Source of the DNA: Granulicella sp. L60
GTDB lineage: Bacteria > Acidobacteriota > Terriglobia > Terriglobales > Acidobacteriaceae
DNA length: 64,000 nt
Assembly (NCBI RefSeq): GCF_009765825.1
Contig: NZ_LMUR01000010.1
Coordinates: 571,783 to 635,782 of the forward strand
Direction of reading: 5' to 3'
Under the pieces are notes generated by a model that saw nothing but the letters and a program-made list of their open reading frames with translations, did no database searches and was not told the DNA's origin. Position numbers and translations under genes: made by a program. Below are positions 56,939 through 58,863 of the stretch, one piece after another (position 1 is the stretch's first letter; the number at the start of each line of letters is the position of its first letter).

Positions 56939-57628
56939 ATGACACTTATTCAAAGTATCTCGCTGGCGTGTACCCTCGCCTCTGCAACATTTTCTGCCGC
57001 CTCTGACGTCTCAAAGACGATTCTTCCTGATAACGTAATGCTCTGCCAGCCGAGTGCTGGCTGTACGAATCAGACTCTCTTCGGCCGAACTTACAAGGTC
57101 ATCGCCACGCCTCGCTATGTTGTGATGGTCTCGGTCTCCACAGAGGGCGAATACACCCGGGCCGACGTGAGCATCGCTAATAACACCGGCCTGCCGCTGA
57201 GCCTTACTCCTGATGACTTTCGCGTCGAGGTGGTCTCGCCGAAGCCGAGGGTTCTGCTCTACATCCCTCCCGCGCAGTTGAAAGACATTCCTCCGCCGCC
57301 GTCCGTTCCGGCAGCCGCACAGACGGAAGAGGCTCCGAAGCCTGAGGGCACGGCTTCCACGGCTGAAGCATCCTCCGCACCGGTAGCGCCCAACTCCGCA
57401 ACCCCTGATATCGATGCGCTCTACGCCGCTGCGAAGAAGAAAGCAGCTCTCCGCGAAGCCGCCGACAAAGCTGCCGCACAACAGAACCTAGCTGCGGTCG
57501 AGATTCAGCCTAACGCGGTGACTCGCGGCCGCGTCTACTTCGAGCGCGACAAGCATGCGCATCAGATCAACGTCGTCCTGCCTATCGCAGGTGTCGTCTT
57601 TGAGTTTCCCTACGCCGCGAAGCCTTGA
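56939..57628 (+). CDS. Exported hypothetical protein
   Basis: A 229-residue protein with an N-terminal signal peptide (cleaving near FSAA, residue 21). The beta-rich first half (VIATPRYVVMVSVSTEGEYT, TPDDFRVEVVSPKPRVLLYI) is joined by a Pro/Ala/Glu linker (PPPPSVPAAAQTEEAPKPEG) and a helical AAKKKAALREAADKAAAQQN to a last strand pair. Such domains occur in acidobacterial surface proteins but the function is not known. AGGAGG lies four bases before ATG 56939. Confidence 0.7.
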   Translation: MTLIQSISLACTLASATFSAASDVSKTILPDNVMLCQPSAGCTNQTLFGRTYKVIATPRYVVMVSVSTEGEYTRADVSIANNTGLPLSLTPDDFRVEVVSPKPRVLLYIPPAQLKDIPPPPSVPAAAQTEEAPKPEGTASTAEASSAPVAPNSATPDIDALYAAAKKKAALREAADKAAAQQNLAAVEIQPNAVTRGRVYFERDKHAHQINVVLPIAGVVFEFPYAAKP

Positions 57629-57751
57629 CGTCGGGGCAGGGAGACGGCCTCCTCCTCCGGCTCCCTGCGCATTGCTCCCACTGCCGGAAGTTGTCGTTCA
57701 GGAGTCGCAGAATCAATGCATTAGCTCGCGTACGCTAGTACAATCGGAGCT

Positions 57752-58462
57752 ATGAGTGGACGTTACCTCCGCCGATCCGACAAGCAGCGTTTGGCCGAAA
57801 CATTCGGCATCAAGGGGGATCTCAGCCACCTCACCATCGCACCCACCGACTACAACATCGCTCCTAACAGCACGCAGCCCGTGATTCGTTGCAACCGTAA
57901 GACCGGCGAACGCGAGATGGTTCTGATGCGGTGGGGACTGGTCCCGCAGTTTGCTAAGTCGCTCAGCGACTTTGAAGGCGCAACAACCATCAACGCACGT
58001 GCCGAAACTCTCACCGGCAAAGCCATGTGGCGCATCCCCTTCGAGAGCCGACGCTGCATCATTCCTGCAGATGGTTTTTACGAGTGGAAGAAACTCGAAG
58101 ACATGACAGGCACACAGAGCCGTCGCATCTCCAAGCCATACGCCTTCACGATGAAGGACCCGCAAAACTCTCCCTTCGCCTTCGCCGGCATATGGTCCGC
58201 GTGGAAAGATCCGAGCGGTTCGTGGCTTCAGAGCTTCGCCATCGTGACGACGACGGCCAACGAACTCGTCGAACCCATTCACAACCGCATGCCTGTCATC
58301 CTTCAGCCGCAAGACTACGATCGCTGGTTCACCCGTAGCCGCACTCAGTTGAACGAGAGCAGCGTCCCCACAAGTGAACTGCCTCTCGACCTGCTTCGTC
58401 CCTACCCGGCTGATGCCATGCAGTCCGTTCCGCACAACCCACTGGATCCCAATCCTTTGTAG
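57752..58462 (+). CDS. SRAP (HMCES/YedK) family protein with Cys2 replaced by Ser
   Basis: A 236-residue SOS-response-associated peptidase fold protein. In the family Cys2, exposed after Met removal, forms a thiazolidine link to abasic DNA. Here codon 2 (57755-57757) is AGT, Ser, in MSGRYLRRSDKQR. The other active-site residues remain: N81 in INARAE, E111 in FYEWK and H177 in EPIHNRMPV. So the fold and DNA-binding surface are kept and only the crosslinking thiol is gone, by one base change (TGT to AGT). GGAG lies close to ATG 57752. Confidence 0.93.
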   Translation: MSGRYLRRSDKQRLAETFGIKGDLSHLTIAPTDYNIAPNSTQPVIRCNRKTGEREMVLMRWGLVPQFAKSLSDFEGATTINARAETLTGKAMWRIPFESRRCIIPADGFYEWKKLEDMTGTQSRRISKPYAFTMKDPQNSPFAFAGIWSAWKDPSGSWLQSFAIVTTTANELVEPIHNRMPVILQPQDYDRWFTRSRTQLNESSVPTSELPLDLLRPYPADAMQSVPHNPLDPNPL

Positions 58463-58566
58463 CCAGCGAACAGGCCACAACTCCGACGAAGATTCGTCTT
58501 CTCCACAACAACTTACTGTCTGAAAATAACGTCCTAACGGTGAGTAGTTATAAGGAGATTTGTACG

Positions 58567-58863
58567 ATGAAGAAAGTCCTCTTCTCTGGCGTATGTGTTC
58601 TGCTTTTGACCGCAGGCATCGCGCAAGCGCAGGTTGTCGTCCGTGTTGGACCACCCGCGCGGCCTTATGAACGGATTCCGCCGCCACCGCCCGAGCATCG
58701 CGACTGGGCATGGCACGGCGGATATCATCGCTGGGATGGAGCCCGGTATGTCTGGGTTCCCGGAAGCTATGTCGCGCCTCCGCGTCCGCATGCCCATTGG
58801 GTCGATGGCCACTGGGACCACAGGGGTGGCGGCTACGTCTGGACCGAAGGCCGCTGGCGCTAA
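58567..58863 (+). CDS. YXWGXW-repeat type exported protein
   Basis: A 98-residue protein with a signal peptide (residues 1-21, cleaving after AQA). The mature part is Trp-, His-, Pro- and Arg-rich: WAWHGGYHRWDGARYVWVPG, HAHWVDGHW and GGYVWTEGRW, as in YXWGXW-repeat proteins. Function unknown; probably a periplasmic or surface protein. AAGGAG precedes ATG 58567. Confidence 0.85.
   Translation: MKKVLFSGVCVLLLTAGIAQAQVVVRVGPPARPYERIPPPPPEHRDWAWHGGYHRWDGARYVWVPGSYVAPPRPHAHWVDGHWDHRGGGYVWTEGRWR

Follow-up and report, generated by a model that had tools for sequence, protein, structure and literature searches.

A SRAP protein with serine in place of the crosslinking cysteine in Granulicella sp. 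L60, and apparently maintained Cys2-less SRAPs in Cytophagales

The closest described systems are E. coli YedK and human HMCES, members of the SRAP family. Excerpts of one report (PMC3765255) describe a cysteine that is absolutely conserved in SRAP and is always residue 2, and excerpts of a study of YedK (PMC9436759) call Cys2 invariant. According to the latter excerpts, YedK without the Cys2 thiol forms no stable crosslink, the N-terminal amine of its C2A and C2S mutants gives a Schiff base that borohydride can trap, and C2A cuts AP-DNA at the abasic site in a reaction that is 25-fold slower with E105Q. Among the literature matches listed, titles and abstract openings contain no description of natural Cys2-less SRAPs.

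We analyzed a stretch of 64,000 nucleotides from the soil bacterium Granulicella sp. L60 (the window), which contains a SRAP gene whose product carries serine at residue 2, as the initial annotation had claimed. Positions 57752–57766 read ATG AGT GGA CGT TAC, the frame is open up to 58462, and the protein matches PF02586 with an E-value of 1.1e-60 (205 bits). The claim that the rest of the active site is conserved also stands, with Asn81, Glu111 and His177 all encoded (Table 1). The AF2 model, built from a 36-row alignment, has a mean pLDDT of 89.2. A PDB fold search with this model gave 21 matches at E ≤ 0.001 (lowest E 3.9e-19), all of which are SRAP entries that are also related to the protein by sequence or are further chains of such SRAPs, including HMCES (5ko9), YedK (6nua) and the YedK C2A Schiff-base complex (8d2m). 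The protein has the sequence, the fold and the Asn/Glu/His set of SRAP but lacks cysteine at residue 2.

Table 1. Features of the SRAP locus, in window coordinates.
Feature	Position	Strand	Evidence
SRAP gene (PF02586), 236 aa, MSGRY start	57752..58462	+	ORF, Pfam match, AF2 model
Ser2 codon AGT; TGT/TGC in relatives	57755..57757	+	Sequence; 103/106 starts with Cys codon
Asn81 codon AAC, active-site Asn (YedK position 75)	57992..57994	+	Sequence, alignment
Glu111 codon GAG, active-site Glu (YedK Glu105)	58082..58084	+	Sequence, alignment
His177 codon CAC, active-site His (YedK His160)	58280..58282	+	Sequence, alignment
C-terminal end HNPLDPNPL-stop, VGNxxNNGPE-like motif missing	58430..58462	+	Subfamily alignment
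Left flanking gene, no Pfam family, same place in relatives, outside SRAP	56939..57628	+	Pfam, synteny
Right flanking gene, WXXGXW repeat protein, same place in many relatives, outside SRAP	58567..58863	+	Pfam, synteny
Stretch without counterpart in two syntenic relatives	57616..58499	.	Nucleotide comparison with L161 and L163

The N-terminus of the protein is fixed, since an in-frame TAG lies at 57722–57724, ten codons 5´ of the ATG, and no ATG, GTG or TTG occurs between it and 57752; an alternative start codon was rejected on these grounds. No downstream M-C-G-R start, which the initial annotation had named as grounds for dropping its claim, exists anywhere in the protein, and the Ser2 start stands. 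A GGAG at 57746–57749 is just 2 nt from the ATG, which is poor Shine-Dalgarno spacing. The GC3 of the gene resembles that of the neighbouring genes. By the rules of methionine aminopeptidase, removal of Met would leave Ser2 as the N-terminal residue. As assembled, the feature is a real Ser2 SRAP.

The identity of residue 2 was read in 107 SRAP loci, 105 of the genus, 5 of them in the window's genome, and 2 of the family's other genera. Locus L026 has no N-terminus, which leaves 106 start rows (104 from the genus and 2 from the other genera). The census covers the matches listed that begin within about the first 7 residues, apart from four short fragments beginning at residue 1 or 2 (in G045, G055, G005 and G034). 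In three pairs the first 300 nt are identical (L050/L052, L065/L073 and L082/L083), and the 106 rows are accordingly not fully independent. Among the matches listed, 103 of the 106 starts have a Cys codon at position 2: 100 including L106, whose start codon is changed, together with L081, L085 and L053, which has lost its start codon. The exceptions are the window copy (Ser2), L070 (Tyr2) and L028 (shifted start). This distribution places the Ser2 of the window copy beyond chance variation. The initial annotation had proposed a survey for homologs sharing Ser2; the 106 starts from the genus and family in Acidobacteriota hold no second one. The nearest relatives, found in a search of 62 genus and 398 family genomes, are 61–62% identical and start with MCGRY, thus having Cys2, and 57–64% of third codon positions differ between them and the window gene. 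None of the genomes searched has a relative above 62% identity by which the change could be dated. Among the starts read, the window copy is alone with Ser2, and related genomes sharing the loss in a constrained ORF were not found.

Decay of SRAP genes is frequent in the genus, with a frameshift in L002, a lost or shifted start in L053, L106 and L028, and Tyr2 in L070. The last of these (G037:C9:4959-5770) starts with MYVRY, has also lost Gly3 and retains an open frame of 239 aa. The window's genome (5.9 Mb in 22 contigs, given as 99.9% complete) has five PF02586 matches. The other four, which the initial annotation had missed together with the missing C-terminal motif, start with MCGRY and all have Cys2. 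With P0001 as the query, six matches are found in this genome, the sixth of which may be a piece of L002 (G000:C17:277332-277865), a copy of the same genome with Cys2 present and a frameshift near residue 43. Another copy in this genome, L005, has a tail unlike that of its kin. SRAP is amplified in the genus: among the matches listed, 42 of 60 genomes have a match and G034 has 21, and 10–21 matches per genome occur in G034, G037, G055, G011 and G016. The high copy number, the identical first 300 nt and the many decayed copies suggest SRAP mobility in the genus. A SRAP of genome G031 lies at position 95478 of contig C2, and plasmid NC_015058 of Granulicella tundricola MP5ACTX9 has a SRAP at the same coordinate. 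SRAP is common on mobile elements (58 phage records and 2051 plasmid records). A phage or plasmid origin of the window copy was considered and rejected, as no match is as high as 60% identity.

The downstream HAD-hydrolase gene (Pfam: Hydrolase_3), which we take to be KdsC, is matched in 61 of 62 genus genomes, in two of them at 40–44% identity only, and is followed by the Lhr helicase gene in all 30 loci read. A SRAP within 1.5 kb upstream of KdsC occurs only in the window's own locus and in none of 29 other syntenic loci; 12 of these 29 show the left flanking gene as well, and a farther-out SRAP is possible in the rest. Nucleotide homology stops at 57613 (L161) or 57615 (L163) and restarts at 58502 or 58500, respectively. 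These breaks, together with the empty loci of the relatives, are most simply explained if the window SRAP is a lineage-specific insert. The gap between the two flanking genes holds the SRAP here, ~620 bp of unrelated DNA in L161 and ~120 bp in L163, and is possibly a recurrent insertion spot. A search of the L161 gap for a SRAP remnant found none.

To place the window protein within its subfamily, 53 copies including it were aligned, chosen by a start motif that permits Cys or Ser at residue 2. The VGNxxNNGPE-like C-terminal motif is common, not universal: 44 of the 53 copies have it (the window counted), and the window copy is among the nine without. Three of the eight other motif-less copies (L029, L071 and L072) have an alternative tail in common and appear sound. 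The window protein retains 16 of the 17 invariant columns; among the 32 columns conserved at ≥95%, it retains 30 and deviates at Cys2 and Leu193; two or more such deviations are found in 21% of the other 52 copies and are not rare. In a quick tree, the end branch of the window SRAP carries 0.35 changes per column. Full relaxation would be expected to produce ~9 changes in the 31 other columns and 1 is observed (P ~3e-4 in a crude test), which indicates that the gene was constrained for most of its history. The pattern of substitutions suggests that the Cys2 loss is either recent or tolerated. Because the gene is otherwise sound, any loss of function would be recent.

Ser2 was also sought by a pattern scan for AGY at residue 2 (TCN serines lie outside the pattern) in 84,980 species genomes, with the window's genome excluded. 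Run with a Cys codon instead, this pattern finds 40 of 80 viral loci, 52 of 108 from the genus and family and 13 of 17 from Cytophagales, so that about half are missed. The scan returned nine stretches, of which six are SRAPs with an AGY serine (a raw count) and three (L037, L039 and L041) are chance matches and not SRAP. Asn, Glu and His are intact in L036, L040 and L042, the last of which is cut by a contig end, and Asn and His are lost in L038, L043 and L044. L036 (L036:5157-5801) comes from a Bacillota MAG and is the only SRAP match in its genome; its 77% identical relative L315 has Cys2, a parallel to the window case. Where Ser2 came with an otherwise intact site, the cases were isolated. 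Viral SRAP loci (80 of 116 confirmed loci) have Cys2 in 78 of 80, and no MSGR start occurs among the 80. One of the two remaining rows, L292, is cut by a contig end, and the other, L269, has an unrelated N-terminus and begins with MSRL by chance. In this viral locus (L269:1863-2579), ~40 unrelated residues (MSRLTYTADM..., HYCEHTGC) replace the Cys2 segment before the NVAP motif.

The loss of Cys2 is widespread in one family of Cytophagales. Sixty genomes were drawn from the family of L043, and all 44 with a match were read, which together with L122 (the L044 gene) gave 45 copies (L130-L159, L122 and L190-L203; for example, L151:1495-2193 on the minus strand and L043:7119-7814 on the plus strand). 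The proteins are near-constant in length (231–237 aa). MCGR with intact Asn, Glu and His is present in 17 copies. Among the 28 others, 23 have Ile, Pro, Ser, Val, Leu, Gly or Tyr in place of Cys2, and the remaining five have Cys2 and have lost Gly3 and Glu. Ser2 within this set is found in L043 and L044 (Mangrovivirga and Marinigracilibium), L191 and L193. The 17 intact copies have 65 columns conserved at 95%, of which 36 are still conserved at ≥85% in the 28, and Arg4 and many other conserved columns are retained in the Cys2-less copies; the original residue is present in fewer than half of the 28 at C2, G3, F84, E102, K111, H159 and V205. Between L043 and L044, 37 first, 10 second and 112 third codon positions differ over 232 codons, with a dN of 0.10 and a dS beyond measure, as would be expected of a Ser2 protein under strong purifying selection. 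The model of the L043 protein has a mean pLDDT of 87.0. L151 starts with MIERY and has Gly for Glu, yet its SRAP score is 196 bits.

Among 14 Cytophagales loci whose flanks were compared, 11 (3 intact and 8 not) have an upstream alpha/beta-hydrolase gene in common, and 5, including L043 and L044, in which the hydrolase is not in view, have a downstream 3-oxoacyl-ACP synthase III gene in common. These neighbours were identified by Pfam matches of full-length proteins; two 50-residue fragments gave none. The common neighbours indicate that the Cytophagales copies are most likely one orthologous gene. On a quick tree of 62 rows, in which 25 of the 59 inner branches are weak, the Cys2 state has to change 6 times within this set. 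Copies without Cys2 have lost Glu in 18 of 23 cases and copies with Cys2 in 5 of 22, a strong co-loss in raw counts (Fisher 3e-4); the independent pairs of the tree (1 on well-supported branches, 6 on all branches) do not establish it. Such co-loss would fit selection against an unprotected lyase, and simple relaxation fits as well. Further SRAP matches are found in nine of 12 searched genomes of the Cys2-less type and in none of the other three (G439, G438 and G424); the further copies in the L043 and L044 genomes start with MCGRY. Related genomes in this set share the loss in constrained ORFs, and the Cytophagales SRAP is apparently a maintained non-crosslinking lineage in which Cys2, Glu and His were lost repeatedly.

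We consider it probable that the window gene is a supernumerary copy that was gained at this site, lost its crosslinking cysteine by one base change and had its C-terminus altered. An extra SRAP gene would have been inserted here in this lineage; we infer that a Cys codon was ancestral, TGT if the change was a single step, and became AGT. The stable thiazolidine link, which is the defining SRAP function, would no longer be formed, and the copy would most likely be on its way out in a cell with four sister copies, one of them frameshifted. If the protein is expressed, the N-terminal amine, Glu111 and His177 should still open an abasic site and form a Schiff base, which would then be resolved by hydrolysis or strand cleavage, as with C2A YedK. 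The initial annotation had weighed a new class of variant against recent inactivation of the gene. A Ser2 class is not supported here, as the 106 starts contain no second Ser2 member, and inactivation is favoured by that absence, by the gene not being seen at 29 syntenic loci and by the altered C-terminus. The Cys2-less kind that does exist is found in Cytophagales, mostly with other active-site residues lost as well, and not here. Against inactivation, the frame is fully open, GC3 is neighbour-like and the other catalytic residues are kept, which makes function possible.

A functional Ser2 enzyme, which would act through an amine Schiff base (possibly with a transient Ser oxazolidine) as an AP lyase or short-lived cap, would account for the retention of N81, E111 and H177 and of 30 of the 32 conserved columns. 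It would agree with the Schiff base of C2A and C2S YedK and the Glu105-dependent cleavage by C2A in the excerpts of PMC9436759, and with the occurrence of Ser2 and intact Asn, Glu and His in four unrelated lineages (the window, L036, L040 and L042 at a contig end). We nevertheless regard it as unlikely, given that no two close relatives were found to share Ser2 and an intact site, that L036, the sole case whose kin were read, has a Cys2 sister, that Glu is mostly lost along with Cys2 in Cytophagales and that the C-terminus of the window copy is altered. The serine-based link suggested initially found no support as a stable one. A SRAP that is no longer catalytic and is retained for binding DNA or for signalling, as an independent recruit to the Cytophagales kind, has a precedent in that apparently maintained lineage with its retained R4 and conserved columns; Glu and His drift there and not in the window copy, and Acidobacteriota provided no second Ser2 member among the starts read, which leaves this reading quite doubtful. 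An assembly or base-calling error at 57755, with TGT as the true codon, is conceivable for a single-base difference in one genome, and is made improbable by the near-complete 22-contig assembly; the AGY serine that six other public records have at this position demonstrates no more than the natural occurrence of this state. We give hardly any credence to a mis-annotated start with the Cys2 start elsewhere: the short GGAG spacing would favour it, and it is opposed by the upstream stop, the absence of other start codons and of a downstream MCGR, and the alignment of relatives at MxGRY.

Taken by itself, the window copy is a duplicate that is probably dying. As a natural Ser2 copy with an intact site, it offers a test of whether the thiol alone separates an abasic-site cap from a cutter. 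The invariance of the SRAP cysteine fails widely in one Cytophagales family, where copies are apparently kept without the crosslinking residues, and this raises a directly testable question, that of SRAP roles beyond crosslinking; that lineage is more interesting than the window copy and is the finding worth following. Speculatively, and with a low probability in our own estimate, Cys2 loss may turn the SRAP cap into something that bacteria keep: first an AP lyase that works through the amine alone or a transient binder, the state of the window protein, and then, with Glu and His gone, a non-reacting binder of ssDNA or AP sites, as in Cytophagales. On this path, the window copy would stand for an early stage that occurs in nature.

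Compared with E. coli YedK and human HMCES, the window protein has the same family, fold and active-site Asn, Glu and His, and differs in having Ser for Cys2 and in missing the C-terminal motif of most genus relatives. It has the same lesion as the engineered C2A and C2S YedK, with the N-terminal amine kept and the thiol gone; the window case is natural, and its protein is 20–22% identical to YedK over structural alignments. This configuration predicts that the protein, if made, would act as a weak AP lyase or bind transiently rather than protect, forming a Schiff base and cleaving the strand, with no thiazolidine link expected from the chemistry. The initial statement that it could bind but not protect fits the mutant behaviour in the excerpts of PMC9436759, and missed that the mutants still form a Schiff base and that C2A cleaves DNA. 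The Cytophagales proteins are likewise SRAPs without Cys2, some with Ser2. They are near-constant in length and have mostly common neighbours, and most have also lost Glu, His or Asn, whereas the window copy is an isolated insert with all three intact.
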